A program made the translations under genes and the position numbers. This document shows positions 2,581 through 59,256 of a stretch of 64,000 bases of DNA, one piece after another (the first letter of the stretch is position 1; the number at the start of each line of letters is the position of its first letter). Source of the DNA: Craspedostauros australis (taxonomy: Eukaryota > Bacillariophyta > Bacillariophyceae > Mastogloiales > Achnanthaceae); contig JAMXDE010000013.1 in the NCBI GenBank assembly GCA_026770025.1, forward strand, positions 372,001 through 436,000, given 5' to 3'. The notes under the pieces are model-generated. The model made no database searches. It had not been told where the DNA came from and saw nothing but the letters and a program-made list of their open reading frames with translations.

Positions 2581-3154
2581 GCTCACGTTTGCACCTGTGT
2601 TGACAACGTTCCTGCTGATTTGATATGGTATGGTATGGTATGGTATGTTATGGTATGGTATGGTATGGTATGGTATGGTATGGTATGGTATGGTATGGTA
2701 TGGTGTGAATGAGTCCCAACGAAGAAAATCATGGAGAGCGAATCTCCACGAAGGCAGAATCTGACAAACCTGTTGTGAAAACAAGCGTGTTTCGTTTCAC
2801 GGAACTCAGGTGGCGGGAATCGAAGCGACGAGAAACTTCGTCGACTCATTTGATCAATTTCGATCACGAAGGGTCTGCTCGACATGTCCGATTCCAAAAA
2901 TACTCCGATTGCACGTCTCAAAATATCGTCCGCGAAATGATTTGTCGGCAACAGCACAGAAACGCCGATAACAACGTTGTCTGTTCAACCAGGCATCCTG
3001 CTTGAGCTCCCGCACAACAACTCCACAACTCGAGCTGGTGTGTGAACAGATGTTGTTGTGCAATAGACTCTGCGATTACTCGTATCCGTACGCTCCTCTG
3101 CTTGTGCTCAAACCCACTCTCTCATTCACATTCCGCAGTCTACCAGCACATCAA
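2581..3154. promoter_or_regulatory. Divergent intergenic region between phosphatase and GT61 genes
   Basis: The phosphatase is transcribed leftward and the GT61 gene rightward from this roughly 570-bp stretch, so it must hold both promoters or a shared one. The only clear structure is the TGGTA array at 2626-2705. No TATA box or other element can be assigned with confidence. Confidence 0.4.
2626..2705. repeat. (TGGTA)n pentanucleotide microsatellite, 16 units
   Basis: Sixteen consecutive 5-bp units of TGGTA are present, with one TGTTA variant at 2646-2650 and a final TGGTG. On the minus strand the array reads through in frame upstream of the phosphatase as a YHTIP repeat. It precedes every ATG and is therefore more likely 5' leader or promoter than coding. 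Confidence 0.95.
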
Positions 3155-14748: not shown

Positions 14749-16248
14749 ATGGTACCGTCTATCCACGCCCGTTCTGCCACCTCCGGAGTGTATGGTAACA
14801 AAGCATTCACCATCTGTGTGGTCGTTGCCATCGCCATGATTGATTGGAGAAAGGCTTCACTGCAATTGAAATCATTAAGTCATGATGACCTCTATTTGGA
14901 CTCGTACACCTTCCCATCCTCAAACTTGGACTCAGCGAGCTTGGCGGGCAACAGCAGCAACGCAAGTCAAGGGGCTGAATCAATGCCTCGATGGACCGGC
15001 AACATCACAGAATTCCCTCCATTCATGATGCAGTGGCCAACCGATACGTTCGGGCCAGATCAATGTAACATTCTGAATACCTCAATTCCATACATCTTCA
15101 ATATCACTGACTATCCCACATCGTACGATTTGGGGGACGTCTTTGGCGTCGTCCATGGTAATCTCACCGAAGCCTGGCATCAAGCTGAGATTGCAGCGAA
15201 GGAGGGCAATCGTACAAATGGGGACGTGCCACAGGTCCCAGACGCTCCTTCCAACCAAATCAAGACTGTCGCCTGCAGCTTGATCGATTACAGCGTCATC
15301 AGTCAGTTCCCGCATCAGATGCAACACATTTACCCGTGCTGGTCGCTGTGGCGGCACTTTCCGGGCGCCAAACACTTCTTCTTTCTTCGTCCAAAGCACC
15401 TTCAAGGCCTTTTGACTGGCTCCGTCTACAACGCCGGCATAACGAACGTATTAAGAGCCAACAATATTTCCATCGTCCCCATGACGATGAAGAACTTCGT
15501 ACGACAGCACCGGTCCGACGCCAGCGAACTCCTCGTCGCGTACTCACATCGAGTTGGCGGTTATCGATCGGTTTCCGAAGGTGACATGCAAGATCTTGGA
15601 AAGCGGGCCTTGACTTCGAATGGTTTGGACGTCTACACCAAGCAGGGTTGTGATGCGGCTCACCGGGACGACAAGCTCGCAGCATCGCCACCAGCAGCCT
15701 TCAATGATGAAATGAAAGGAAAGAGCGGTTCGTCGGAATATTCCAACCCACTCCATCCACCGCGCATTGCTATTGCCAATCGCAGGGACAGGAGGCGGTT
15801 GCTTGGCGCGCACAACGTGTCAATTCTGTTGCAAGACGAATTTGGGCTGCCGTACAGTCCACCAGTTTTCTTCCTCGAGGACATGACATTCAAGCAACAG
15901 GTGGAGGCCTTCGCCAGCATTGACATCTTATTGACGCCGCATGGTGCACAGCTGACATCGGTTCCGTTCATGCCCCATTGCAGCTCACTGGTCGAGGTGC
16001 TCCCGCGTGCCTACGATTGGAATGAGTTCTTTGGAACGTTGGCAGCTATCTCTGGTGTGAATCATTCCTACAAATACCTTGGGACAGATGTGGCCGCGGA
16101 AACTGAACCTCTCCGCTCATCCCAAGGACAAGAAATCGCACGCTCAACCATTCTGTGCGCGCCAGCAGACCCCATGATAGAAGCCGTCAGGATACAAATG
16201 CACCGATGGCAAGAGTGCTGCGGGTTCGCGTGGTCGTCCGTTCGATAG
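14749..16248 (+). CDS. GT61-type glycosyltransferase, copy 2
   Basis: Paralogue of the gene at 3155, 499 aa, single exon, ATG start. It has the same plan: a short N-tail, a signal anchor (TICVVVAIAMIDW), a sequon-rich stem with the shared block ITEFPPFMMQWPTDTFGPDQC, then the GT61 catalytic core. Core motifs seen are NRRDRRRLLGAHN, LLQDEFGLPY, the Gln helix TFKQQVEAF, LLTPHGAQLT with the conserved His at about residue 398, and SSLVEVLPRAYDW. It ends near CCGFAWSSVR. All family landmarks are intact, so it should be an active Golgi-type transferase. Its start context (LPSIH/VPSIH) matches that of the broken copy 3, to which it seems the closest relative. Acceptor and sugar are unknown. Confidence 0.85.
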   Translation: MVPSIHARSATSGVYGNKAFTICVVVAIAMIDWRKASLQLKSLSHDDLYLDSYTFPSSNLDSASLAGNSSNASQGAESMPRWTGNITEFPPFMMQWPTDTFGPDQCNILNTSIPYIFNITDYPTSYDLGDVFGVVHGNLTEAWHQAEIAAKEGNRTNGDVPQVPDAPSNQIKTVACSLIDYSVISQFPHQMQHIYPCWSLWRHFPGAKHFFFLRPKHLQGLLTGSVYNAGITNVLRANNISIVPMTMKNFVRQHRSDASELLVAYSHRVGGYRSVSEGDMQDLGKRALTSNGLDVYTKQGCDAAHRDDKLAASPPAAFNDEMKGKSGSSEYSNPLHPPRIAIANRRDRRRLLGAHNVSILLQDEFGLPYSPPVFFLEDMTFKQQVEAFASIDILLTPHGAQLTSVPFMPHCSSLVEVLPRAYDWNEFFGTLAAISGVNHSYKYLGTDVAAETEPLRSSQGQEIARSTILCAPADPMIEAVRIQMHRWQECCGFAWSSVR

Positions 16249-30895: not shown

Positions 30896-31920
30896 TTACT
30901 TCAACACCTTCCATGGTAGATACCCCCAATGTTCCTTGCAGAAGTGGACTTCGCACAAACTGAAGATCCGTTTGACCCTTTTTGGAGTGTTTCTTTCGAG
31001 GCCAGTAATTTTATTTGTGGCCCCCAAGCAGCAGCAATATTGGCAAAGTCGTTGCTTACCATCCTTGTCGATTATGTGTCCGTGGTCTTCATACACCCCA
31101 TGAACATATCCTCGCTTAGTTCTGGTTGGGTACTGCTCATCTTCATCCTTGTTCATATCTCCTGTGGGATTCTCCCTGCCTGTTGGCAAGTTCTGTGATT
31201 GGAAGCCTACGATCGTGGAAGACGGTGTTGGTTGATATTCGTTCTGTTTGCTATTTCATTAGTTGAGCACTCTAATCCTCTTGGTGTCTCCGTTCTCTTG
31301 CCCAATGCTCTTGGCACGTTAATATGTTTTGTAGATTGGGTCTCCAACTATGAGTTGGTGTGAGAGATGCTCTCTTGCTGCTATTTGTATTCTCTCTCTC
31401 TCTCTCTCCATATCATGTACTTGCATGACACTATACTTCTCGTTCGATGCGTATTCCGCATTCGACACTCCTTTCATTCAGTACTGTCTTCTACTCCAAG
31501 AGTACTTACCATTTGAACTTCATCTCCCGTATCCATGATCCTGATGTCCTTTGGTCATCGGATCTTTGCCTCCTGCTCTGACCTGGAGACAGATGTCGAC
31601 GTGGTGACACGATGACATCCTGTCAACGTCAGTAGGCGTCCTTCTGCTCTCCAGATGTCATGTTCCATTGGTGATGCAGTAGTCTGTCAGATGATATCGT
31701 CATCTGAGGTTTAGTTGGGAAGTACCTTGAGATTCGCTTGGTACCATACGTCTCCATTGATGGATGGATGGACGATATTTCCAATTCTCTCAGAAATCGT
31801 CGATTGGAAATTTCCTCCAGAAAGTCTGCTCATTTTCGTGTGTTCCATTTCCACTGTAATTCTGACAAATCACAGCATACTATTGACACGAATGTAGTTG
31901 TACCGTTCGTACATGAATAA
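30896..31920 (-). pseudogene. Decayed transposase-like tail, downstream of the MULE exon
   Basis: On the minus strand this stretch carries broken coding segments. At the low-coordinate end is an open segment with a Cys/His cluster (RLCQYCCCLG, then SLCEVHFCKEHWGYLP), of the kind found as a zinc-binding tail in cut-and-paste transposases such as piggyBac. Upstream segments read GDPIYKTY-stop-RAKSIGQENG and MDTGDEVQMVSTL, again interrupted by stops. Near 31740 lies the YFPTKPxxT block shared with 8930-9230. The segment could be the ruined 3' half of the MULE gene that lies next to it on the same strand, or a separate element. A (CT)n microsatellite at 31391-31408 interrupts it. Confidence 0.4.
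31391..31408. repeat. (CT)n microsatellite
   Basis: Nine dinucleotide units inside the decayed transposase region. Confidence 0.9.
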
Positions 31921-31974
31921 GAGATTAACAGGTGAACGATGCACATATACACGTACATGTCGACATATACTCAC

Positions 31975-32907
31975 ATGTACATCTCGACAGATGTGGTACA
32001 TGCAACACGTGTGAGTGATGCCCCATCCTACCAACATCGTTTGCACTTCGCCACTCTCAAGGCCCTTCGCACCATCGCTCATGAGCAGGCGCACGTTTGG
32101 AAAGCTGTCCCTCACATGATCAAGGAACCATTTCCAGTTGCTTGCTGTTTCAACAGGGAGAATGCCAAACGCAAGAATGACGAGTTGGCGTGATGCATCA
32201 TAAGCAGTCAGGAGGCACATGTAACCCTTCACTGCAGATCGAAGGTGAGTGGCATCCACACACACCATGCCATCGAAATGAGAGAATGTCTTGATGCTTC
32301 CACCAGGTGCACAAAAGACGTGGCGCAATTGCATTCCATCGTCACCATTGATGTCACCTTGGACTGGACCAATGTCAACCTTGTACGCTCCTCCACTGTC
32401 TTTCTCGGCCAAAGCACCGATGTAGGACCGAATCAATTTGCACTCAGCCAAGTGCTTCTTGATTGTAACTCCTTTGTCCCTGATGATATCGTAGAGCTGC
32501 CCCTTTTTCAGCGTGATGGACAATTCGTTCTTGATCATGTTGCCCAGTTGCTGACGTCCACCCGCAGCAGGAACTTGATACTTCCCAATGATGTCAGTCA
32601 TCTCGTCCAAGATGGCAGTTTTGTAGCTTGCCTTGCGGGTACATGTGCCCTGACAAGCATGGCCAACGAAGTGCGTGATGCGGACCCCTTTGCCATTCTT
32701 CAAGAGACGAGCATGGCAGTCGAAGGGACAGTCGGTAGCATCAGAGCACACGAGCTTGATTGCATCGCCTGACCTCTTCTTTTGAATGTATCCGGCACCA
32801 GCAGGCAAGCTGTGCGACAATACAGCCGCACAAACATGAATGAAGTCCACTCCTTCCTTTTCCGCTCCCTTTGCAAGGGTGATGAACGATTTGCTGTTGC
32901 TGGACAT
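31975..32907 (-). CDS. Mutator-like (MULE) transposase, N-terminal exon
   Basis: This exon encodes 311 aa from an ATG at 32907. The N-terminal part has a Cys/His DNA-binding-like region (CSDATDCPFDCHARL ... HFVGHACQGTC, residues 54-89). It is followed by the MULE transposase core: VDATHL with the first catalytic Asp at 218, GYMCLLTAYDASRQLVILAF, SNWKWFLDHV, the second Asp in LLMSDGAKGL (278), and THTCCMYHICRDVH. The third acidic residue and the rest of the domain are missing from this exon. A canonical donor (GTGAGT at 31974-31969) follows in phase 0 and suggests that further exons existed. The downstream DNA is full of stops, so the element is probably dead. The function would be cut-and-paste transposition in the nucleus. 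Confidence 0.75.
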
Positions 32908-33527: not shown

Positions 33528-34990
33528 ATGCCAACGCCTCCAAACACATGGCTACCGTCTATCCATGGCGTGAACACGAGGCAGAAGCTCGTTTGTGCCA
33601 TCGGCTTCACGATCGTATTGACGAATTTGAGGTGGTCTCAGCAGACATTGGGAGCTTTCACAATGCCAACCATTGGTGCCTACAGAGATGCCGTCGTCGA
33701 CACTTCAACAGAAGCAGTTTCCAGCCACTCTCTTCGATGGAATAGCAACATCACGGACTTCCCATCCTTCATGCTGCAATGGCCAACCGATACATTCGAA
33801 CCAGACCAATGCGATATCATGAACGCTTCAATGCCGTACATCTTCACCATCACCAACTATTCTAAATCGTACGATCCGGAGGATGCCTTTAGATCTTTTA
33901 CGGTAGCATCACTGAAGCATGGAAGCAAGGCGGTGCTTCAATGAAGGAAGTCAATCGCACGAATTCGACGAACGTTGCCATCGGTCAAGTCAAAACAGTC
34001 GCGTGCAGGATAGGCAACCCATACGGGATACGCCACTTCCCACATCTGATGCAAAACTTGTACCCATGCTGGCCGTTGTGGAAGCACTTCCCAGACGCTG
34101 AACACATCTTTTTTCTTGGCAACCATTCCTCCAAAAAGATGTTTCGTTGGTCTGTGTTAGGCGCTACAACTCTCAAACTGTTTGAAGCAGAGAACGTTAC
34201 GTTCATCACCACGCCTCAGCAGCACTACATCGAAGAATTCAAAAATCGCCCCAACGAGCTGCTCTTTGTCGGGGCGAAGATCGTGAGTGAGCACTGGGAT
34301 GTTGTGGAGGCAGGTGGTTACCGAGCTCCCCACGAAGACGACATGTCAGATTTCAGGACGCATGTCTTGAATCTATTTGGGTTAGGCCGTTACGTCAATC
34401 AAGCTTGTGGAATGACTTCCCAGTCTGATGCGCATGAGGCATCTCCAAAATTGCTGGGAACCAACGGCAAAGCAGACACGGGCGATGGCTCAAACGCCCC
34501 AACACGCCGCCCACCACGCATCGTCATCGCCAATCGTTTCAAAACCCGGCGATTTCTCCGAGCGCACAACATCTCCATGCTCCTGCAGGGGGAGCTCAAT
34601 CTTCCGTACAGACCTCCCGTTTTCTACATCGACAACCTGCCAGCCGAACAGCAACTGGAGTTATTCTCCAACATCGACATTTTGCTGACACCGCATGGAG
34701 CGATGCTGGCAAATACACCATTCATGCCTCGTTGCAGTTCAGTGGTCGAAGTGATCCCGCGCGCCTATCCTCTTGGAAGATACTTTGGATCGCTGGCTGC
34801 AATATCCGGTGTCAATCATTCCTATGTCTACCTTGGAGAGGATTTGGTTGCCGACACTGTAGGTTGGAGAACGCGGGAGTTGCAAGGCCGTGCGCGCTCA
34901 GTTCCACTATGCGCGCCAGTGCATGCGCTCATAGAGGCAGTGAAGATCCAGGTCGATCAGTGGCACCAGTGCTGCGGATTTGCCGGTTAA
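33528..34990 (+). pseudogene. GT61-type glycosyltransferase, copy 3, frameshifted
   Basis: Third GT61 paralogue. The first frame runs from an ATG at 33528 (signal anchor KLVCAIGFTIVLTNL, shared block MLQWPTDTFEPDQC) to about 33899. The homologous reading then moves to another frame, which continues to 34990 with GSITEAWKQ and the full catalytic core (NRFKTRRFLRAHN, LLTPHGAMLA, SSVVEVIPRAY, SGVNHSY, ending CCGFAG). The break coincides with a run of four T at 33896-33899; one additional T would restore a single frame like copies 1 and 2. No other defect is seen, so it is either a very young pseudogene or a sequence error in a homopolymer. The change HGAQLT to HGAMLA next to the conserved His is also unlike the other two copies. 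Confidence 0.75.
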
Positions 34991-39750: not shown

Positions 39751-40539
39751 TCATGCGCAACGCGCCACGACCGAATCAGTGCGGGCTCGTGCCTGAGGCA
39801 TGATGTCCGGTCGCCGTGATCTCATTGCCTGTGGTTGGAAGGAGGCTTTCCGAGATATGTTCGTTTTGTCCGCAGCCCCGGTCGATGACAGTTTGCTGTC
39901 AGTCATCCATGTAGTACTGGTAGGCTTGGCAGTCGACGAAGCAGCCGTGCTGGCAATGTTGCCACTCCTTGTGCCATAGTCGAGACAGCAGTACCTTGCG
40001 GCTACCTTGGCGTCTGCGTTGCCAACCAAAGAGGCTTGATGATGACACCGCTGGGAGACGAGGTGGTACACACGTGCCATGGCCATTGCATCGACCTTCA
40101 CCGCTGGATGATTGGGACAATGCTCGCACTGTAACGCCTCTTGCTGTGCGAACACTGCCAGGTAGGCAAGCTCACGTGCATGCTGTAGCTGCAGATGCCG
40201 TGGGCCGACCAGTCTCTCCAGTCCACGCGTGCAGTAGCCAGTATCCTTGCCTGCCTCCATCTTGCGAAGGAGATTGATTGTCTTGTTGTTGATAGTTTCG
40301 TATTCGTCAGCCTGGTACCACACACGATGGAGTTCATCCGGTGTGTACTCGTTGAGAGGCATGGTGTAATGAATTTGCTGGATGGTACTGAAGCGGACTT
40401 TGCCACCGTTCTCGTCTCTGGCGATGCCCAGGCTGACTTCTTCCCGATTGATGAGACCGACGCTTGGTATGCTTGTGGTGGCCGTGCTCATGGCCGGGCT
40501 CGTCCTCGTGTTCGTATTTGTGCTCCCGTTCACGTTCAT
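39751..40539 (-). CDS. YCTRGLE-family protein, copy 1 (262 aa)
   Basis: Function unknown. The domain reads VRFSTIQQIHYTMPLNEYTP, then ELHRVWYQADEYETINNKTI, then LLRKMEAGKDTGYCTRGLER. Similar proteins, with V-x-F, a W-[FY]-x-x-x-[ED] motif and CxRGLE, are common in diatoms as far as I recall and have no assigned role. N- and C-terminal parts are disordered and polar, with a short Cys/His patch (CEHCPNH). The paralogue at 53236 matches through the domain and also in the final residues (VVARCA in both). The pair flanks a Harbinger-like transposon. ATG at 40539; a hexanucleotide TTAGTG array lies just upstream. Single exon. Confidence 0.75.
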   Translation of the reverse strand: MNVNGSTNTNTRTSPAMSTATTSIPSVGLINREEVSLGIARDENGGKVRFSTIQQIHYTMPLNEYTPDELHRVWYQADEYETINNKTINLLRKMEAGKDTGYCTRGLERLVGPRHLQLQHARELAYLAVFAQQEALQCEHCPNHPAVKVDAMAMARVYHLVSQRCHHQASLVGNADAKVAARYCCLDYGTRSGNIASTAASSTAKPTSTTWMTDSKLSSTGAADKTNISRKASFQPQAMRSRRPDIMPQARARTDSVVARCA

Positions 40540-40606: not shown

Positions 40607-41021
40607 ATCAGAACGCTGGCTGGGCGGATACATTGAGATTATGGGATAGATGTGGACGCAGAGATCGGTTGAAACTGTTCGTTGATGGCGTGAAAAGGCA
40701 TGCGTCGTCCTCGCTGGCCAGCGAACGAGTGCGCTGCCGCTACACCATGATTGTTTGTCGGTGTTCGTTCCAAGCGCATACACAACGACTCAGGCTGATG
40801 ATACCAGTAGAAATCCTTCGAATAATGATCATGCAGGCTGTATGGATGAGTGTGCACGGCAGGGATGAAATCTCATGGAATTCGACACAGCTGTGCCCTC
40901 TTCTGGGAGAGACGAATCCGTGGCTTCCTCCACAACGACTTCATTTTGTGAGAAGTGAAACGGCGAAGCCGCTTCGGTGTTTCTCGTTTGGGTGAGGTGC
41001 GTTATGTGTACAAGCTCCCAT

Positions 41022-41060
41022 GGGGGGGAAGGGAAAACGGCGTTTTTTGCGAATTGCGAC
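41022..41060 (+). repeat. Left terminal inverted repeat of the Harbinger-like element
   Basis: Begins GGGGGGGAAGGGAAAACGG, followed by CGTTTTTT. Its reverse-complement partner is at 51242-51280. The flanking CAT at 41019-41021 is repeated directly outside the right end. Confidence 0.8.
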
Positions 41061-41426
41061 GAAGGAAAACGAAAGTCGAAAAGGGATGCGGGCCACCAAA
41101 TGGCGAAACATTCTTGCGTATTTTCAAAAACAACTTGTGGCTTTTTTGCTCATTATCATGTTGTGTACGAACTGCATCTTGTTGTTTTTTGGCTTTTTTC
41201 ATTCTGGTCCACGGATCCTTCGCCTCTTCATGCCATTGTACACATTCGACAGCTACAGAGCCAGCATGTTCCCCTCTCTTCGAATGGGGGGTGCGGATGT
41301 TGTTGCGACTCTCTTGCCAGTTGACTTGTTGCATTCCAACAGCAGGATTCATCTAGGTACGACAAGCAAACGTTGTACATTCTGACTCCACTATTTATGG
41401 TATTCTCGTTTGCCTTGCTGAGGCGG

Positions 41427-44400
41427 TTAACTTGCATCACCACGGCTCTGTCGTGCAGCCCTTCCACGGGTCCTCATCCCAGTAGTAGTCGGCTTTCTTC
41501 GTGCTTTCTCTTTGTCATTATGCTGGTGCTGTGATTGTTGGTCTCCTATTGCTTGTTCTGCCATTGTGGGATTATTCGTGGCTGCTTCCGCTGTTGTCGT
41601 TGGTGCTGTTGCGACCTGCGGTGGCTGTTGGCTACTTCCTTCTGCTGTCTCTCCTCTTGCATCATCTTTTCGGACCGATTCAGTTGATGCCAAAGTTGCA
41701 CTTGGCGATGGCATCTGGACTCCACCTGTTTCGGCTCCTCTTGTTGACACCAGTGATGGCGGTGATGGCAAGATCACCACCTCTGTTTGGGCATCTGTTC
41801 GTGTTGTATGCTGCTTACCGCCTGCCTGGGCTGGTAGGATCCGTTGAGGTGATCCCACTACAGCAATCACCTCTTCTGGTGCCCGTCCTCCTCCACTGTC
41901 CAAGACTTCCGAAATTCTGGCTGCTGGTGATCGTGGTGGTGGCATTGTCTGCATCTCCGTTTGGGAATCTGTTCCTGTTGTTTGCTGCTCACCGCCTGCC
42001 TGGGCTGGTAGGATCCGTTGAGGCGATCCCACTACAGCAATCACCTCTTCTGGTGCCCGTCCTCCTCCACTGTCCAAGACTTCCAAACTTCTGGCTGCTG
42101 GTGATCGTGGTGGTGGCATTGTCTGCATCTCCGTTCGTGTTCTGTGGTGGGCATTGCCTGCCTGGGCTGGTAGGATCCGTTGGGGTGATCCTGCTGTTGC
42201 CATCTCGTCTGGCCATGCCCGTCCTCCTCCACTGTCCAAGACTTCCGAACGTCTGGCTGCTGGTGATTGTGGTGGTGGCATTGTCTGTGTCTCCGTTCGG
42301 GCATCTGTTCGTGTTGTTTGCTGTGCACCGCCTGCCTGGGCTGGTAGGATCCGTTCGAGCGATGGGTGAATGCGACTGCTCTGGCTTCTTTCGTCCATAG
42401 CAGAGCGACGGTATGTGTACTGGTCTGCGCTGACTCTCACATCTGCTGCTGCTGGATCTTTACCACCTGATCTGCTTGCCAAGTGGCCAGCAGCATCAAC
42501 CAATGCCGCATCAAGGGAGATATCCTCATGCTCCCACCATCTGTTGGCATTTTGGGAGACGTTCACATTGATGTTGGGGCCACCTGCTGGGGCCATTTCG
42601 ATGGCAAGGCGGGGCTTCTTTCTTGGTCCACTCACTTCATTGTTCTCTGCCAACATTCTGGGTCTCTGTTGCAAGGCGTCTTCCCGTGCCCGGATTATGC
42701 GCTTTTCCTCCACCTTGAGAGCCAGCTCAGCTTCCATCATCTCAAGTGCTACCCGCTTGATTTCAATGCGGTCTCGTATTATGTCGGTACTGTCCGTAAA
42801 TACCGACATGGTGTCGTCAGTGGCAGTCCGGGTTGCTGGCTGATGACTGATTGCAGAAACCGTGGGCGTGGCTTGTTGGCCATGCAGCCTTGGCTGTGTT
42901 GCTGATGGTAGTTGTCCGGTGTTGTTGCTTGCAAGGCTTTGTGCTGCTGGGATGTGGCTGTGGCCTCCTGGCTTGGTGGTGGGTGTGGGTATTGCAGGTG
43001 TTGTGCTGTAGCCAGCAGCATTTCCTGTGGTGTCCACTGTCTTGCTCACCGTGCTCGTCATTGTGTTGTTGATATTGTGGGTAGTGATGTCAGTGGTGCA
43101 ACTTTGTGTGTTAGTGACTTCACCACGGACACCCGGATGGCTTCCATCATCTGCAAAGCCGAGACCATGGCATACAGAAAAGTGCCGGGTCACACCCACG
43201 TTGGTTGCTTCCTTCAAACGTACCGTTATTGTGAGGATGTTGTGAGTGGCGCCATCATTGTCCTTCACAGCATGACGTAGCCAGACCACTCCTCCTAATC
43301 TTCGGCATGGTGTGTCACAGAAGATGGTGTCAATAGGAAATGGCATGGGCACAAGCATTTCTGATCGGAATGACTCTGCAAAGTCTTCATTCCGAAACTG
43401 CTGCACATGGGCAGCACGTTTCTGTCCTGCATCAGAGAATGGATGGCCCAACTTGTCGATTAGAATGTCCACGATGCTTCCATCTTGACCGAAAGCTGAT
43501 GGTGGCTTGTACAGCAGCACCAGGAACATCCGAGGTACTCCGCCCACCTTCCGACTTTCAATGGTCACTGTTGCGTCATTCCTTGTAGTACATGCAGGCA
43601 GGTGGAAATCCACCCCAACCATGCGATATCGTTCACCACGAGGTCTCCACACTTGAGTTGTGTGAAAGACCTCGATGGTGCGGCTCAGCTTCCGAAACTT
43701 GGCAACTCGTTGGGGCTCTGATAGCTCAAAAAAGGTGCCAAATCTTGCAGTGATGGGGTCCAGAGGGCGGCTTGAAGCTTGGTTTTGGACTGCTGTGTTG
43801 CCCATCCCAAGGTAGTCGATGTCATCCTCAGAATCGGTTGCTTCAACATCATCGGATGCATCGTCGTCTTCAGCCCATGCACTGTTGTTGCTCCCATCTG
43901 TGTCATTGGTTTGACTGGGGGTAGTGGTGCCATGTTTGTCGGATCTGTCATGTGTGCTTCTCCGTGTGATTCGTCTGCTCACAGCTGACCTGCTGTTGTT
44001 GATGGTGTTGGCGTTGTTCTGGTTGGCGGTGTTGGAGTTATGGTTGGAGGTTTCCAGCACAGAGTCATCAGCCGCAGGTTCATCAAGAGGACGGAGGTTG
44101 GCACCTAGCTTCTGGATTGAAACCTTGTGTGGTGTGCCATCCTCTGGATGAAACGACGAAGAGATGAAGGCCAAAGGTTGGTGTCATAGGAAAGAGATAA
44201 GAACACGGATGAGAAGTAACCTGGTTGAAAGCAGAGATGCTCAGGATGAAAAGTTGGCAATGTCACTGGGCATGTGATACTCACGATGAAACAAAGACTT
44301 CTTCACCAGTGCGCGTTTGAATTCGCGTAGCGTCCGAACAAACTTCTTTGCATCGTACTTGACCAAGAAAGGGTGATGAAGACGCAGAGGCGTTGACTCC

Positions 44401-44492
44401 CAGTGCCATTTTGTTGGCTCGGCCAAGAACGCCTTGATCAGCTCCTTAGCATCGGGGCCATTTTTGTAGAAACGGACTTCTGAGCCAACCAT
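41427..44492 (-). CDS. Two-exon transposon cargo protein, 974 aa, unrecognised
   Basis: The predicted exons are 44492-44285 and 44143-41427, joined in phase 1 through a 141-bp GT-AG intron (donor GTGAGT, acceptor CATCCAG). The first exon encodes a compact basic segment (KWHWESTPLRLHHPFLVKYD, then KKFVRTLREFKRALVKKSLF). Exon 2 gives a low-complexity acidic region and a folded-looking domain of about 200 residues (RPLDPITARFGTFFELSEPQ through FSVCHGLGFADDG). A linker with a predicted coiled coil (KRVALEMMEAELALKVEEKR) follows, then four tandem repeats of about 54 residues each starting RILPAQAGG, and a basic C-terminus (RGRAARQSRGDAS). No known domain is recognised. Its position inside the element suggests a role as second, DNA-binding protein of a Harbinger system, but it shows no Myb/SANT signature. 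Confidence 0.6.
41820..42360. repeat. In-frame tandem repeat within the cargo gene (about 162-180 bp units)
   Basis: Four copies anchored on CCTGCCTGGGCTGGTAGGAT start near 41821, 41995, 42157 and 42337. They encode the RILPAQAGG ... PPPRSPAAR ... EVLDSGGGR repeats of the 974-aa protein. All spacings are multiples of three, so the reading frame is kept. Confidence 0.85.
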
Positions 44493-44502
44493 TGTTGTGT
44501 GT

Positions 44503-45471
44503 GTGCAAATGTGCTGATGTGCAAGTGTCTTGATGTGCGAGTGCAAGGATGTGGTGATGTCCAAATGTGAGAGTGTCTTGATGTGCAAGTGTGAGGATGT
44601 GCTGATGTACAAATGTGAGAGTGTCTTGATGTGCAAGTGCAAGGATGTGGTGATGCCTGAGTGTGAGAGTCCGTTGATGTGGGAATGTGCAAATGTGCAA
44701 GGATGTGCTGATGTGGTGATGTCCAAATGTGAGAGTGTCTTGATGTGCGAGTGCGAGGATGTGCTGATGTTCGAATGTGAGAGTGTCTTGATGTGCGAGT
44801 GCGAGGATGTGCTGATGTCCAAATGTGAGAGTCTGTTTTTGTGCGAGTGCAAGGATGTGCTGATGTGCTGATATTCGAATGTGAGAGTGTCTTGATGTGC
44901 GAGTGCGAGGATGTGCTGATGTTCGAATGTGAGAGTGTCTTGATGTGCGAGTGCGAGGATGTGCTGATGTTCGAATGTGAGAGTGTCTTGATGTGCGAGT
45001 GCGAGGATGTGCTGATGTTCGAATGTGAGAGTCTGTTTTTGCACGAGTGCAAGGATGTGCTGATGTGCTGATGTGCAAATGTGCTGATATGGGAGTGTCT
45101 TGATGTGTGAGTGCGAGGAAGTGCTGATGTCCAAATGTGAGAGTCCGTTGATGTGCGAATGTGCTGATGTGCTGATGTCCAAATGTGAGAGCGTCTTGAT
45201 GTGCGGGTGCGAGTGCGGGTGCGCCTTTGGTGCAAGGATGTCCTGATGTGGTGATGTCCGAATGTGAGAGTGTCTTGATGTGCCAGTGTGAGGACGTGCT
45301 GATGTCCAAATGTGAGAGTCTGTTTTTGTGCGAGTTCGAGGATGTGCTGATGTGCTGATGTGCTGATGTGAGAGTGTCTTGGTGTGCAAGTGCAAGGATG
45401 TGCTGATGTCCAAATGTGAGAGTGTCTTGATGTGCGAGTGCAAGGATGTGCTGATGTTCGAATGTGTTGAT
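44503..45471. repeat. 48-bp minisatellite upstream of the cargo gene
   Basis: About 20 imperfect units are present; the core unit contains GTGAGAGTGTCTTGATGTGC and GAGGATGTGCTGATG. Perfect 48-bp spacing is seen between about 44880 and 45020. Because the unit is a multiple of three, all frames stay open, which creates minus-strand frames of more than 500 codons that I regard as artefactual. The array starts a few bases upstream of the predicted ATG at 44492, in the leader or promoter. Confidence 0.9.
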
Positions 45472-45721
45472 GTTGGATTGTGTGGGTGAGTGTTGTGTTT
45501 ATTATGGCAGCAATGATTTGTTCGAGTGGGTTGTTTTGACATGTTGAGAGGCAATACCACTGCAAGCCTTGTTTGGTGACGCTGCTCTGTGGGTGTTTGG
45601 TTGCCTCTGTTCTTCCAGTGCGCTGAAACAAACCAGCACGGTCGTGCGCTCCATTGCGATGCAAATTCCTTCCTTCGTGGCCATGCGTACGTGCAGAACC
45701 GGCGCAGTTCCATCGCAGCGA

Positions 45722-45965
45722 CGCATTCCGCATCAGTGGTCGTGGATGATTTCGAATGCTGCGAAAAGACCAAGCAGGGCCGGACAGTCCGTTGGCGCGG
45801 TCGAATACCACATGGTGAGACGAAACCGAATACATTGAAGTTTCGCATTCCGCGGAAGTATTCGCGTGTGACTTGGAAAGTCGCAAAAAGACCGAGCAGG
45901 ATCGGACAGTCCGTTGGTTCGGTTGAATACGACCTAGTAGGAATGGGCTCGGAACCACGTCGCAG
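45722..45965. repeat. 122-bp tandem duplication
   Basis: Two adjacent copies, 45722-45843 and 45844-45965, share CGCATTCC, CGGACAGTCCGTTGG and other blocks at a constant offset of 122 bases. Confidence 0.7.
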
Positions 45966-46499
45966 TGTACAACCACACTAAATAGCGTCGCAGCGAACCC
46001 AAAACGCGACATGTTGGTCCCAAATGGCACTTTGAAAGACTTTGATAGCCCCAATAGTGTCACTCGCTGCACAATAATTGACAAGAATGGGTCTAAGTAA
46101 TGCTGTTCTTGGTCGAAATCGACACCAAGGCATAAAATAGTCTCAACATTACGTCAATTGGCGCAGAAAGGGGCTAACAAATGCCCAAATGGTGTTGCTC
46201 GAACCGTTCATCCTGAAACTGCCTGTTCAGAACTGCCACAACCAAAACATCATTCCTGGCACATCCGGACGCAGGGAGCAATCCGTTCAAAACTGCAGTG
46301 TATGTACAAACAGACCAACATGTTGGGCGAATGCGCCAAAGGCGACGCAGTCGAAACACTGTTTCGGTCCGGCCAACGCAGAAAAAATGGCACAAATGAG
46401 AACATGTTCCACGATTCAACGGCGAGATGGAAAAAACGGTGCGAATGTCCGAGGGAAACAGTAACAGACGAATTTCGCACAGGACGAATAAATGTGACA

Positions 46500-48480
46500 A
46501 AGCGCTTCCGGTCTTCATCTGTGTGTATGCGTGCACCGGTCTTGTTCCTTCGTTTGGATTTAACCTGTCTGTTCTTACTGACATTGTGCATGTGACAAGT
46601 TTGCACGATCGACCCTGCGCGGCATGACTCCATACCCGGTTTGTTTCAGCAATACTGCACAGAAACATGTCAGACATGACATGAAGAACAACAAATCATC
46701 CCACGTACAACATCACTCGCGCACCATCCGACATGATCCTTCTGCTGTTCGTCTGTTGCTGTGTGTGCTGTTCTTTTTCGTTTGGTTCGATTTAACCTGT
46801 CTGTGCTTGGTAACGTTGCACATGTGGCAAGTTCGCACGATCAACCCTGCGCGCCATGACGCCATACCCTGTTTGTTGCAACCGTACTAGACACGACATG
46901 AAGAACACATCATCCCACGTACAACATCACTCGCGCACCATCCGACATGATCCTTCTGCTCTTCGTCTGTTTCTGTGTGTGCTGGTCTTTTTTGTTCGTT
47001 TCGATTGAACCTGTCTGTGCTTGGTGACGTTGCACATGTGGCAAGTTCGCACGATCAACCCTGCGCGCCATGACTCCATACCCTGTTTGTTGCAACCGTA
47101 CTAGACACGACATGAAGAACAACACATCATCCCACGTACAACATCACTTGCGCACCATCCGACATGATCCTTCTGCTGTTCGTCTGTTGCTGTGTGTGCT
47201 GTTCTTTTTCGTTTGGTTCGATTTAACCTGTCTGTGCTTGGTGACGTTGCACATGTGGCAAGTTCGCACGATCAACCCTGCGCGCCATGACTCCATACCC
47301 TGTTTGTTGCAACCGTACTAGACACGACATGAAGAACACATCATCCCACGTACAACATCACTCGCGCACCATCCGACATGATCCTTCTGCTCTTCGTCTG
47401 TTTCTGTGTGTGCTGGTCTTTTTCGTTCGTTTCGGTTGAACCTGTCTGTTCTTACCGACTTTGTGCATGTGACAAGTTTGCACAATCGACCCTGTGCTCG
47501 ATTACTACATACCCTGTTTGTTGCAACCGTACTAGACACGACATGAAGAACACATCATTGTGCATACAACATCACTTGCGCACCATCCGACATGGTCCTC
47601 CTTCTCTTTGTCTGTTTCTGTGTGTGCTGGTCTTTTTCGTTCGTTTCGATTTAGCCTATCTCTTCTTACTGACGTTGTGCATGTGACAAGTTTGCACGAT
47701 TGACCCTCTGTGTGCCATGACGCCATACCCGGTTTGTTTCAGGAACACTGCACAGAGACATGCCAGAAACGACGTGCGGAACAACAAATTATCCCACGTA
47801 CAACATCACTCATGCACCATCCGACACGGTCCTCCTGCTCTTGGTCTGTTTCTGTGTGTGCCGGTAATTTTTGTTCGTCTCGATTGAACCGGTCTGTTCT
47901 TGCCGACGTTGCACATGTGACAAGTTTGCACGATCGACCCTCTGTGTGCCATGAGTCCACACCCGGTTTGTTTCAGCAATACTGCACAGAGACATGCCAG
48001 AAACGACGTGTGGAACAACAAATTATCCCACATACAACATCACCCACACATCATCCGACACGATCCTCCTGCTCTTCGTCTGTGTGTATGCGTGCGCCGG
48101 TCTTTTTTGTTCGTTTCGATTGAATCTGTCTGTTCTTGCCGACGTTGCACATGTGGCAAGTTCGCACGATCGACCCTGTGTGCCATGACGCCATGGCGGG
48201 TTTGTTTCACCAACACTGCACAGAGACATGCCAGAAACGACGTGCGGAACAACAAATCATCCCACATACAACGTCGATCGCGCACCATCCGCCACGTCCC
48301 TCCTTCTCTTTGTCTGTTTCTGTGTGTGCTGGGTCTTTTTGTTTGTTTTGATTTAGCCTATCTGTCCGTACTTGTTCATGTTGCACATGTTACTACTTTG
48401 TATGGTTGGCCCTGTGCGCCATGACTCCATACCCGGTTTGTTGGGACAATACTGCACAGACATGAGGCCCACGTACAGAA
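46500..48480. repeat. Tandem satellite array, about 8-9 units of 214-236 bp
   Basis: The anchor ATGACTCCATACCC-like block recurs at 46624, 46856, 47070, 47287, 47501, 47717, 47951, 48185 and 48421. The intervals are 232, 214, 217, 214, 216, 234, 234 and 236 bases. Long units carry GTTTGTTTCAGCAATACTGC next to the anchor; short ones have a GTTTGTTGCAACCGTACTAG version and lack about 18 bases. The short class occupies the centre and the long class the edges. Partial units flank both ends. Frames of about 60-100 codons inside are by-products. Confidence 0.9.
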
Positions 48481-48751
48481 TTGCGCGGGCAGAATCAAAC
48501 ACAGCACATCCAACCCTCCTCTGTGTCCGTGAATGCACTGCGTTTTTTGCCAGTCCGAACCAACACAAATGGCGAATGCCAACAAGCCGCACAACATGCT
48601 AAATTTTGCATGTTCTTGTGTGTTCAGAACAAATCAACAATAGCAGCACTTGCCCTGCATGTTTTCCTCTCTCTGTTGCTGAATTTCATAGTTCACTGCT
48701 TGATGTCACAATTTTGTCCTCCATCCTGTTGGTACATCAAGGCACATCAGA

Positions 48752-49797
48752 ATGGCATCAGAGACAACAGAGACAGCCATTGCATGCAAGGGAATGGAGC
48801 TTCTGGGACAAGCGTTTGAGCCTAGACTCCAGACTCCACCATCGTACGGCGTGCAAACATGTTTCCGAAGCAACTTCGGAACCCACACCAAAGTGGCAGC
48901 CATGGCGTGGGACAGACTGAATGAGGAGGACTTACTGCCGTGGAATGCAACAATGGAGCACCTGCTGTGCGCTCTCATGTTTCTCAAACAATATTCGACA
49001 TGGGGCGTGCTGGCAGGGCAAATGGGAAAGGATGTGAAAACTATACAGAAGTGGACCTGGATTATTCTTCGTGCGTTGGGTCTCCTCAGCCGTGAACTTG
49101 TAAGTGGCACAACTTTGGAACATCAACATCCAGACTGCAACATACACAATGCAATTGATGAGCAGCATGCCTTACGTCTCACATTCTCTTTATCTTCCAA
49201 TGTTCACATGTGTTCATCCTATCCCAGATATGTTTTGAAGATCGGAAAATGGGATGTGCACCAGGAACTACAACAATGGCATCTGTAGATGGCACTGACT
49301 TCCCCATCATGGAGCCTGTTTTGTATGATCCAGGCTGGTATTCCCACAAATTTCAAGCTGCAGGGCTCCGATACGAAACTTGCGTTTCCATTGCAAAAGG
49401 GCACCTTGTGTGGGTGGATGGACCATATCCTTGTGGGGAGTGGCCGGACATCAAAATTTATCGAGAGAAGCTCCTACATGAGTTGGATCCTTTCGAACAG
49501 GTCATTGCAGACCGTGGGTACAGAGGTGAGCGAAGCTGCTGCTTGGATCGCACTCGACGCAATGGTGTGATTCGTGCACGCCATGAAACCGTACACAAAA
49601 GGTTCAAGAACTGGAAGTGCCTGAAGCAAAAATGGCGGCACTTACTGGAGAAGCACCAGTATGCAATGTACTCGGTTGCCGCAATCACGCAGTTGGAACT
49701 GAAACATACAAATCCATTGTTTAACCTCACCGAAACAATGGGAGTGATCAGAGAGATGGATGATTGGTTGGATTCCCTGGTGGAACCGGAAGAATAA
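48752..49797 (+). CDS. Harbinger-type DDE transposase, two exons
   Basis: The predicted exons are 48752-49099 and 49228-49797 (305 aa), joined in phase 0 across a 128-bp GTAAGT-CCCAG intron. Exon 1 gives the helical N-terminal part (WGVLAGQMGKDVKTIQKWTW), as expected for a helix-turn-helix-like region. Exon 2 carries the DDE_Tnp_4 core: SVDGTDFPI with Asp at 137, VIADRGYRG with Asp at 211, and IRARHETVHKRFKNWKCL with Glu at 236. The C-terminal YAMYSVAAITQLELKH is typical of the family. No stop, frameshift or missing catalytic residue is seen. The protein should cut at the element's inverted repeats in the nucleus. The intron is inferred from frame and homology. Confidence 0.85.
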
Positions 49798-51241
49798 GCA
49801 ACACTCACATGCAACAAAACAACGAACTTTAAATAGCAACAACAACCATCACTTTTCAATCTATTCGTCACCGGAACTGCTGGAAAGTTGATGCAGTTGG
49901 CTGGACCAACAGACAAAGTATCCCAGGCCAAACCAAGGTGGACTGAAGGAGTGATCCTTGTCTGCAAAGGTAAGAATAAGGACAAGGACAAGGAAGAAGA
50001 GAAGAAACAGAGGCACGAAGCAGTTTGTTTGCAATCATGATTGTGTTGTTGACAAACACATGGGGGGACAAGAAGAAGCTGCTTGTACAACATAAGAACA
50101 ACAACTATGCAAATAGCCTGGTAGTTTTGGACTCCTGCATCCAACAAATCCGGCACATCATGCAACCATCAAGGTCCACGGAGATGGGGGCAGAGGCCGT
50201 TGTTACAGCTCTCAGCATCCTGAAGTAAGGCAGCACTCCATCAGAAGGAAGCAACTACATGTCAATCAACATCATCAAGGAAGCTCGGCAAGGAGCAGGC
50301 TGAGACGGCCTGATATGGACTGCACAGTTCGACCGTGGAGAAAGCACGGTCGAAACCCTGCCAGGTCATCAGAGCGCCGCAAACCCTTCCACTGGCAAAC
50401 CAAAGTGACTCACGAGCTGTGACACGTGACATTACAACAATGGTCAGGCCTAAATCACCTCCTCCTTGAAGAATACCAGTGCGTCATCATGTTTCAGTGC
50501 ATGGACACCGATTGCCAAGCCTTTGCAGAGCTGCCTCGAAGATCTATGCTTACCCACCATGTGTAAGCTGGCTTTGCACCTAGCAGGAGCCAGGACGACT
50601 CTAGCAGAGGAGCTTCTTGCCATGACACATGGCAAGCCGTATATGGAGGCCACAGTTGGTCCAGAGCATGGAGCATGGCTGCACCGTTCACCATCTGCAT
50701 CCAACATCCTCCAGCGTGACCACACGCCCGGCATGCCTCACACGAGTCACTGCAATGGCAGCTGGCACTGCCACGTGCGTCTCCCGCATGTATGTAATAT
50801 ATGTACAGGCATATGTAATTGCATGCAACCACACGGCAAGGCAAGACCTGCCAACATGATCCATTCCCACTGAATGGTTCATGTGGAATGAATGCAGCAG
50901 TACGAAAACACCGGTGGCACATAGTTTTGGAATACAGTCTATATGGTACAACAATAACAGAAAAATATCTGTACACAGCATGCATGGGGAGGAAGAGAGA
51001 AGCAACTTGCATTGTTCGTATGGTAGGCTGGACCACTATTAGTTGTTACAGGGTGGTGGTAAAGTGTGGATGCAAGTTATGGACGAAGTTGCAATGGAGG
51101 ATGGGCTTGTTCTCCCAAACCCAAAGCAAGTCACAAATACACGAGGAAAGCAACAGCAGAACCTGTGAAATGGCTGATTCCAACGAAGACCAAGAAAATG
51201 TGGAAAATAGCAACAATGGACCCACTTTCTATTCTTTCTGA

Positions 51242-51280
51242 GTCGCATTTACAAAAAAACGCCGTTTTCCCTTCCCCTCC
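51242..51280 (-). repeat. Right terminal inverted repeat of the Harbinger-like element
   Basis: Reverse complement begins GGAGGGGAAGGGAAAACGG, followed by CGTTTTTT. It matches the left end without gaps at 34 of 39 positions. The direct CAT follows at 51281-51283. Confidence 0.8.
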
Positions 51281-51283
51281 CAT

Positions 51284-53235: not shown

Positions 53236-54030
53236 TCAAGCGCAGCGTGCCACTACAGTCTCCTTGCACGCCAACGTATTTGATGCCACTTTTACTCGCG
53301 GCTCCTTATGTTTTGCTCCAGGCGACGGTGACGGCAACGACGAGGACGGAGGATGGCGTGCACTTGTGAATGATGCATGATGTTGCTGATTTGCAGGCGC
53401 AGCGGTCATAAATTGGCAGCCTGCCTCGATTTCATTGTCTCTCTTTCGCATGGTCGACGGCGCAGAATCTAAGGGCGAGTTGTTATGGTATTCGCTGTAC
53501 ACTTCGCCTTGAGTTGACGCTGATGCCCTGAGTGTGCCTGCATACTTCGGGCCGTAGCACCGTTCTGCGATCTTGGCGTCGGCAGCACCTATCAGCGATG
53601 CTTGTTGTTGGCAGTGAAGCGAAACAGAAGAGTACACGCCGATCATGATGCCTGCCTCATCTCCCATCACCATGTCAGTTTGGTTGCTCGTGAACACTGC
53701 GACGGAGGCAAATTCCCGAACGCGCCGTAGTTGGAACCGCCGTTGCCCCACCAATTTCTCCAGCCCTCGTGTGCAATAACCATTCGCCTTGCCCGCCTCC
53801 ATCTTTCGAAGCAGGTTGATTGTCTTGCCGTTGATAGTCTCGTACTCGAGGGGCTGATACCATGTTTGGCTCAGCTCTTGTGATGTGTATTGGTGGAGAG
53901 GGATTGTCCACTGCGTCTGGTGAGTGTCACCAAAGCGTACTTTTCTGCACCCTTTGGTTTTACTCTTTGTGATGCTGGCGCTGTTTCTGTCGCTAGCGCT
54001 GTTTTCGTTCGAGGCCGTTCCAGCGTCCAT
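53236..54030 (-). CDS. YCTRGLE-family protein, copy 2 (264 aa)
   Basis: Paralogue of the gene at 39751 on the same strand. The domain reads VRFGDTHQTQWTIPLHQYTS, then ELSQTWYQPLEYETINGKTI, then LLRKMEAGKANGYCTRGLEK. After the domain a helical stretch (RRFQLRRVREFASVAVF) and a conserved QQASLIGAADAKIAERC segment match copy 1 (HHQASLVGNADAKVAARYC). The last residues (ETVVARCA) match copy 1 (DSVVARCA). The N-terminus is short and polar, the region before the C-terminus disordered. ATG at 54030, single exon. Role unknown. Confidence 0.75.
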   Translation of the reverse strand: MDAGTASNENSASDRNSASITKSKTKGCRKVRFGDTHQTQWTIPLHQYTSQELSQTWYQPLEYETINGKTINLLRKMEAGKANGYCTRGLEKLVGQRRFQLRRVREFASVAVFTSNQTDMVMGDEAGIMIGVYSSVSLHCQQQASLIGAADAKIAERCYGPKYAGTLRASASTQGEVYSEYHNNSPLDSAPSTMRKRDNEIEAGCQFMTAAPANQQHHASFTSARHPPSSSLPSPSPGAKHKEPRVKVASNTLACKETVVARCA

Positions 54031-58329: not shown

Positions 58330-59256
58330 ATGATGCCAAACATGAAGGTGGGGATCCGACGAAGGCGCCCAAAGCAGCAAAAGTCGCAGAAGCAACAACG
58401 GCGTCATGCCTTGAGCTTGAACGCTGCGATCGTCTCGAACGTCCCGAAGTGTAGACCGGCTTTGCCAGCCTCCTCATCGCATTCTGCACCAACAGCGCCG
58501 ACCAGTACGGAATCCTCCCTGCATGACGCTGATACTTACGATTTCAGCCACCACGGAGACGGAAACTGGGATGACACGTTCCATACGTCCACCGACAGCG
58601 ACGACGATGATGACGACACGGTCGCGAGCACGAGCACGAGCAGCACCATTTCCATATCGGAAGTCTTCACAAGGTCCGTCCATTTCGCGCCGATGGATAG
58701 CATCCACCCCATCGCGGGGCTGCAGGATTACACGGAAAAGGAGATCGAGGATTGCTGGTTCCAAACGGAGGACTTCGATTTGGCGCAGAGGAAGGCGAGG
58801 AAGCTGCTGTCCAAGATGCGCCACGGAACGGCGAATCAGTACTGCACGAGGGGATTGGAGAAGCTGTTCGGAGAACGATTGGAGGTCGCACGTGAGACCC
58901 GCCGGCAAGCGTACGACGCGGTCGCAGAGGCTCAGCTTGAAGAGCGAGCATGGTTGCAACGTGCTGATGCCATTGACCACGTCATTGCCATGGGTGATAG
59001 GGTAGCCAGAGCGTATTCAGCTGTGGCCACGGCATGCATCGAAAGAGCGAGGATCATGGCGGACAACGACGCTGCCGTTGTCAAGCCGTATCTAAGAAGG
59101 AACGGAAAGAAGAGCAGAAGCTCGAACAAGACGAAGAGGAAGGGGTCGATGGGTCCAAGGACACAACAGCAAACGCCGAGCCCTGCCAAGTCCCCGCGGG
59201 TATCCACCACGAAGCGAGGCAAAAAGGCAAAAGCCGCCAAGCAGCAGCAGCAGTAG
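58330..59256 (+). CDS. YCTRGLE-family protein, copy 3 (308 aa)
   Basis: A more distant member of the family of 39751 and 53236. The order is a basic N-terminus (GIRRRRPKQQKSQKQQRRH), a disordered Ser/Thr segment with an Asp run (DSDDDDDDT), then the domain VHFAPMDSIHPIAGLQDYTE, EIEDCWFQTEDFDLAQRKAR and LLSKMRHGTANQYCTRGLEK. A long helix with alternating charges follows, and the C-terminus is Lys/Arg-rich and could hold nuclear localisation signals (KSRSSNKTKRK). It lacks the VVARCA tail of the other two copies. Function unknown. ATG at 58330, single exon. Confidence 0.75.
   Translation: MMPNMKVGIRRRRPKQQKSQKQQRRHALSLNAAIVSNVPKCRPALPASSSHSAPTAPTSTESSLHDADTYDFSHHGDGNWDDTFHTSTDSDDDDDDTVASTSTSSTISISEVFTRSVHFAPMDSIHPIAGLQDYTEKEIEDCWFQTEDFDLAQRKARKLLSKMRHGTANQYCTRGLEKLFGERLEVARETRRQAYDAVAEAQLEERAWLQRADAIDHVIAMGDRVARAYSAVATACIERARIMADNDAAVVKPYLRRNGKKSRSSNKTKRKGSMGPRTQQQTPSPAKSPRVSTTKRGKKAKAAKQQQQ

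Follow-up and report, generated by a model that had tools for sequence, protein, structure and literature searches.

A giant, recently mobile Harbinger-like transposon of the diatom Craspedostauros australis inserts at a C|NNN|G target and carries a conserved, divergent second gene

Do two inverted ends, a transposase gene and an unfamiliar second gene, spread over 10.3 kb of a diatom genome, belong to one element that moves as a unit, and if so, what is the second gene (gene 2) doing there? We addressed this question for positions 41022-51280 of a 64,000-nucleotide stretch, the window, which corresponds to C11:372001-436000 in the 74.8-Mb, 90-contig genome of Craspedostauros australis. The original prediction for this locus, a giant and possibly recently mobile Harbinger-like element, is supported by terminal inverted repeats (TIRs), 3-bp target site duplications (TSDs), a DDE_Tnp_4 transposase and near-identical copies elsewhere. 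Judging from the sequence, we put at roughly 85% the probability that this is a DDE transposon of the PHIS (PIF/Harbinger) superfamily that moves by cut-and-paste, relies on two proteins and is, or recently was, autonomous.

The window element is complete and 10,259 bp long (41022-51280). Its 39-bp TIRs, the left at 41022-41060 (plus strand) and the right at 51242-51280 (minus strand), pair without gaps at 34 of 39 positions, and the trinucleotide CAT stands exactly outside both ends (41019-41021 and 51281-51283, unstranded), just as first described. A genome search with the end sequences, the check that had been proposed at the outset, showed that the ends recur and that full-length copies lie elsewhere. 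A 21-bp TIR core with up to two mismatches gave 64 genome matches, versus none for a reversed control pattern. The left end (first 101 bp) gave 39 matches and the right end (last 121 bp) 40 scored among 45 candidates, both lists containing cross-matches between the two inverted ends.

We read 21 two-ended copies, window copy counted. Gene sequence is present in 19 of these, with lengths of 8.8-19.6 kb, and the other two are 1.95-kb derivatives on C2 with identical adjoining bases, counted as one duplicated site. Across the 20 non-duplicate copies, the ungapped identity of the 39-bp end pairs is 20-37 of 39, the low values reflecting slippage in G or T runs. Copy interiors are colinear, with identity ranging from 99.9% down to about 71-86%, and the interior is common to all 18 other long two-ended copies read; the extra length of the longer copies consists of unaligned insertions or longer arrays. 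The two ends therefore share an interior rather than occurring as separate repeats. Three further end pairs, on C15, C57 and C9, were recognized by coordinates alone. The C9 pair, with ends about 313 bp apart (C9:249808-250121), resembles a miniature inverted-repeat transposable element, and a silicon transporter gene (C9:252229) lies about 2 kb away.

Identical 3-bp duplications flank 20 of the 21 two-ended copies, allowing at most one base of slippage in G/C runs; in the diverged copy on C42, the TSD matches at two of three bases. The 19 non-duplicate TSDs comprise CAA (four), TTT (three), ATG and TTG (two each), and CAT, GCA, CCA, CTT, TGT, TGG, CTG and CAG (one each), so that CAN or NTG accounts for 11 of 19 versus a background of 17%. 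The bases outside the duplication are far more uniform: the 5' neighbor is C in 20 of 21 copies (19 of 20 without the duplicate) and the 3' neighbor is G in all 21 (20 of 20), where C...G pentamers, the background for these flanking bases, make up 6.6% of the window.

To look for empty sites, the flanks of 19 insertions, C42 and the duplicate C2m2 excluded, were joined without the second duplication and queried against the genome. A related empty site spans the junction for at least seven of the 19 (C10, C66, C36, C1, C34, C57a and C74), the best match of each being 89-100% identical. Empty sites in the batch that included C34 are a lower bound, C34 having taken 35 of the 40 scored matches out of 100 candidates. 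Query and subject spans are equal in length in the best match of all seven, so that each empty site has the 3 bp only once. This sets the duplication at 3 bp and gives C|NNN|G as the recognized target. The proposed 3-bp target duplication is borne out in this way, and a TSD that fails to return to a single copy, which would have spoken against it, was not seen at these seven of 19 tested insertions, while the window's own site gave no empty allele in the search with joined flanks. The element inserts as a unit, with its TIRs, into C|NNN|G, a target with a degenerate core whose central 3 bp are duplicated. The repeat that hosts the C34 copy is found at many loci as two 100%-identical copies with a spacing of 6,383 bp (e.g., C50:74991/81374, C46:16822/23205 and C28:503261/509644), a pairing as expected of a very young long terminal repeat retrotransposon.

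The family has also moved within very recent time. Three other full-length copies, on C10, C66 and C36, are 99.8-99.9% identical to the window copy over the whole interior by BLAST and differ from it by 2-7 substitutions each over ~10.26 kb, so few that movement must have been very recent; among the four, any two copies are separated by 1-7 substitutions over about 10,260 bp. One tight cluster in the second tandem array described below accounts for five of the variable positions and looks like conversion. The flanks of the four young copies differ, which makes them separate insertions, and both genes are open in all four.

The transposase gene is on the plus strand, with exon 1 at 48752-49099, a 128-bp GT..AG intron at 49100-49227 and exon 2, which holds the DDE_Tnp_4 domain, at 49228-49797. 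The spliced model yields a 305-aa product with Asp137, Asp211 and Glu236, a triad kept in a 66%-identical relative, and the Pfam match of 29.4 bits (E 7e-7) exceeds the cut-off of 24.8 bits; both the two-exon structure and the domain assignment had been anticipated correctly. The intron is 128 bp in all 19 gene-bearing copies of the window's family (family A), with GT..AG borders in 18 (C42 is without the AG), and 106 bp in L049, a more distant element described below. We calculated the ratio of nonsynonymous to synonymous substitution rates (dN/dS) by the Nei-Gojobori method for pairs of seven family-A copies, namely six of those without internal stops plus C42; some pairs were saturated or empty, and dS was mostly saturated in comparison with the ~65%-identical relative. 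Transposase values of 0.11-0.25 show that the enzyme is under purifying selection, with its DDE triad kept. The aligned pieces of both genes are free of internal stops in 12 of the 19 gene-bearing copies, six of the 12 ending at the transposase's second-last residue. The best match of the transposase in a PDB sequence search had an E-value of only 0.11, one scan of viral contigs gave no relative of exon 2, and tRNA and Rfam scans of the window gave no matches.

We next turn to gene 2, which the original prediction had grouped with the satellites as an unusual load. We scored 150 of 326 candidate transposase loci, using 149 rows after omission of a partial 71% row on C35, and compared them with 68 of 126 gene 2 rows, for which we kept the main piece at each locus and dropped second pieces and rows for exon 1. 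The transposase query began with a few intron-encoded residues from a mechanical open reading frame (ORF), and linkage was scored to the nearest gene 2 match, which in crowded places such as C57 may belong to a neighboring element. Gene 2 lies within 25 kb of 60 of the 62 scored clade transposase loci (at least 63% identity) versus only three of 87 less similar Harbinger transposases in the same genome, and those three (C23, C7 and C43) are, by position, near partner genes of neighboring elements already counted. This co-occurrence marks the clade by its own partner gene. The two genes are divergent in 59 of the 60 linked loci by nearest match, and the remaining locus, on C27, has a divergent partner slightly further off. 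Two clade transposases are without gene 2, one of which (C4:3369949) lies within about 6 kb of a contig end.

The same gene layout is found in L049 (C11:475300-484800), a family B element with ~65% transposase identity, and gene 2 thus stays linked and divergent to the transposase in ~65% relatives as well. Gene 2 accordingly belongs to the conserved core of the clade and is not load; the giant size that had been noted, 10.3 kb, holds. Family B itself has 12 copies, L049 included, that are 99-100% identical over 900 bp near the gene 2 side, and probably represents a second recent burst. Another, separate repeat (L049:8443-9501, 1.06 kb or longer) starts beside or inside the family B element and has at least 40 other long matches, scored among 480 candidates.

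Gene 2 encodes 974 aa on the minus strand and has one intron. Exon 1 (44285-44492) contains the start codon and a basic, W/F/Y-rich N-terminal region of 69 aa; it is followed by an intron of 141 bp with GT..AG borders, placed from the sequence (44144-44284), and by exon 2 (41427-44143). The donor GT is present in 19 of 20 gene-bearing loci, L049 included, and C11b has AT there. After the basic N-terminal region, the predicted protein would consist of an acidic linker, a conserved region (aa 191-405, window 43137-43781), a charged stretch that is helical by eye, a basic motif and a variable, low-constraint tail. The basic motif, PRKKPRL or KKPR-like, recurs in all six other copies examined and may be a nuclear signal. 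The tail differs in length among copies and contains a 174-bp repeat (41781-42363, 3.4 copies) whose unit is a multiple of three bases.

Selection on this protein is uneven. Constraint is strongest at aa 191-405, with dN/dS of 0.04-0.13 and 0.48 in one pair with few changes. Exon 1, which has 43% identity to the ~65% relative with W, F, Y and basic residues conserved, gave 0.07-0.35 and 0.58 in one pair. Values are higher in the linker, aa 70-190 (0.14-0.57, with 2.01 in one pair with few changes), and in the tail (0.39-0.78). Two regions of gene 2, exon 1 and aa 191-405, are therefore under purifying selection equal to or stronger than that on the transposase.

In the window, 4.26 kb separate the start codons of the two genes, and tandem repeat makes up 68% of this spacer. 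Array 1 (44502-45483, unstranded) lies just upstream of the gene 2 start codon, with a gap of about 10 bp, and follows an 8-bp register (8/16/24/32/40/48/56). Array 2 (46538-48460, unstranded) lies on the transposase side, upstream of that gene, and its units in the displayed copies measure about 193-247 bp or multiples of this. Between them is a non-repetitive core (45722-46480, unstranded), all or part of which is alignable at 71-88% in the 15 diverged gene-bearing copies. In C14, C2b and C11b, the units of array 1 differ from those of the window and the 8-bp register is kept (four of four copies tested, window included); the sole private indel of the window copy in array 1 is a deletion of one 8-bp unit. 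At this place L049 has other satellites, whose consensus units are 48, 60 and 61 bp, and a tandem cover of 0.34. Tandem repeats cover 0.49-0.80 of the spacer in 16 of 19 gene-bearing copies, and on this basis we rejected the idea of satellites as random load; contrary to the original prediction, most copies read have their arrays in the same position. A comparison of 7-mers between the arrays and the two 470-bp end regions likewise led us to reject binding repeats shared with the ends. Lying 5' of two divergent genes, the arrays are most likely turnover-prone promoter or spacer DNA for both.

Taken as a working mechanism, the transposase would cut at the boundary of TIR and target with a 3-bp stagger and rejoin the element into C|NNN|G. 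In Ping/Pong and Harbinger3_DR, two proteins are required (PMC2836001), the published partner being an ORF1 product with a Myb-like domain that binds the TIRs and carries the transposase into the nucleus (PMC2836001, PMC9179366). The gene 2 protein would take on both of these tasks and is most likely a DNA-binding partner, an assignment based on linkage and selection, not on homology.

Several results weigh against this two-protein picture. Neither conserved region of gene 2 in the window has a Pfam match up to E 10, and a single-sequence structural model of the N-terminal region, with a predicted local distance difference test score (pLDDT) of 67, folds as helix-strand-strand-helix and not as a clear Myb tri-helix. 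The corresponding model of aa 191-405 reaches a pLDDT of only 39. Seven of the 19 gene-bearing copies have stops inside one or both genes. With respect to the arrays, spacer tandem cover is low in three of 19 copies (C4a 0.27, C27 0.14 and C42 0.05), and long arrays are thus no strict requirement. None of the 25 most frequent 7-mers of array 1 occurs in either end region, and only four of the 25 from array 2 do, once or twice. A PDB sequence search gave no match to aa 191-405, and the L049 homolog of gene 2 has one sub-threshold Pfam match, to MVL (E 0.16, 12.4 of 25 bits). Gene 2 may nonetheless hold a very diverged Myb-like domain.

Could gene 2 instead be cargo, a passenger or host-captured gene that aids persistence, for example by evading silencing, and is dispensable for transposition? 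The window protein is without a known domain and has a long, fast-evolving tail with an internal repeat, and in Ectocarpus the accessory genes of giant DNA transposons are mostly of unknown function (PMC12477816). Set against this are the presence of gene 2 at 60 of 62 clade loci, with transposases differing by up to about 37% and divergent orientation in 59, and selection on two of its regions as strong as that on the transposase. Cargo genes are usually variable, and we regard this alternative as unlikely. It is more doubtful still that the transposase alone is needed and the 10-kb form is a hitch-hiker, its long copies moved in trans by other family members. The short two-ended derivatives, 1.95 kb on C2 and about 313 bp on C9 (by coordinates), do suggest that the ends are sufficient for mobilization in trans; however, among the copies read, the youngest have their full length and two open genes, and both genes are under constraint. 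Finally, a composite artefact, in which a repeat-rich region is by chance bracketed by two short inverted repeats of unrelated origin, has no supporting point and is refuted by the TIR core counts, the interior shared by 18 of 18 other long copies, the TSDs identical in 20 of 21 and the empty sites.

How, then, does the two-protein element relate to known systems? It has the features that define the PHIS superfamily: a DDE_Tnp_4-type transposase with D, D and E, TIRs, and a 3-bp TSD, the length typical of most of its groups, demonstrated by empty sites. The six PHIS groups described in PMC4482050 have the targets TWA, AT, none (Spy, in AAATTT), ANT, CWG and C|TNA|G. The classical TWA duplication of PIF/Harbinger sensu stricto does not apply, a degenerate 3 bp inside C|NNN|G taking its place: neither TAA nor TTA occurs among the 19 non-duplicate perfect TSDs. 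The outer C (20 of 21) and G (21 of 21) agree with NuwaII (C|TNA|G), but none of 19 cores is TNA. CAG or CTG, the CWG of NuwaI, is found at two of 19 sites (three with the alternative reading of the slippage at C1), and the ANT of Pangu at none of 19. ISL2EU has a 2-bp AT TSD and a YqaJ second protein, whereas here the TSD is 3 bp and the gene 2 protein of the window has no Pfam match. The clade thus appears to lie outside the six known groups, set apart by its target sequence.

Other features show a mixture of likeness and difference. With PIF/Harbinger sensu stricto, the element shares a DDE transposase, TIRs of <60 bp starting with G, a 3-bp TSD and two genes, and differs from it, apart from the TSD, in its size (10.3 kb versus a group mean of about 4.1 kb), a second protein without detectable Myb/SANT and tandem arrays in the divergent spacer (PMC4482050). 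NuwaI has GGG at the TIR start and two genes, as here, and NuwaII has C and G flanking the 3-bp duplication and two genes; in both, compared by description, the second ORF is Myb/SANT, whereas the core here is degenerate (CAT, CAA, GCA, CTT, TGT, TTT and others) (PMC4482050). Pangu has been reported in one heterokont among other hosts, and both Pangu and the Ectocarpus Harbingers have stramenopile hosts, as here (PMC4482050, PMC12477816). A second ORF of Pangu resembles gene 2 in having no known motif according to the Results of PMC4482050, although the Discussion there gives it as Myb/SANT. Pangu is distinguished by its ANT TSD (PMC4482050), and the gene pairs of the Ectocarpus Harbingers are tail-to-tail, unlike the head-to-head arrangement here (PMC12477816).

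Ping/Pong and Harbinger3_DR share with the present element two element-encoded proteins, a 3-bp TSD and short non-autonomous derivatives (PMC2836001); the partner here is without a detectable Myb domain, and its requirement is presumed. Like the giant DNA transposons of algae and fungi, the element falls within 10-20 kb, contains further insertions and carries an extra gene, but those named as giant in Ectocarpus are KDZ, EnSpm and Sola-1 and not Harbinger (PMC12477816). In a term search, neither Harbinger nor PIF turned up in the main text of PMC6431247, on giant transposons. Thalassiosira and Cyclotella are known to have Harbinger-like elements (PMC2806351, PMC7466962), so the superfamily's presence in diatoms is not new. 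No title or abstract start among the literature matches listed describes such an element, and a deposited Repbase consensus may exist. As a tentative and rather speculative extension, the clade might, if groups are told apart by TSD as in PMC4482050, form a further PHIS group, a C|NNN|G lineage in which an unrelated protein replaced the Myb partner and in which divergent promoters made of fast-turning arrays, one in strict 8-bp register, are read by the partner to set its own dose.

The element sits in a cluster of related host genes, since ORFs similar by eye and sharing a YCTRGLE motif lie on both sides of it (39751-40539 and 53236-54030, minus strand; 58330-59256, plus strand). Elsewhere in the window, three ORFs similar to one another by eye (3002-4693, 14749-16248 and 33941-34990) resemble glycosyltransferase-type paralogs, and an ORF at 31870-32907 (minus strand) resembles a MULE-type transposase by eye. 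Diatom genomes generally have only a handful of silicon transporter genes each. In this genome, they are greatly expanded, with 88 Pfam match rows, some clustered; 32 of the 88 cover at least 480 of the model's 513 positions, and in-frame stops interrupt four of the 32 (examples are C11:710408-712021, C9:2024068-2025684 and C2:977655-1028778).

Characterized members of the superfamily need a second protein, and those described so far are of the Myb/SANT or YqaJ type. With a conserved partner in which neither domain is detectable, a relaxed target and 10-kb copies that are nearly identical, the present family offers a natural test of what the partner does and of how target choice evolves. Furthermore, a large and recently mobile diatom DNA element could be tried as a gene-delivery tool.

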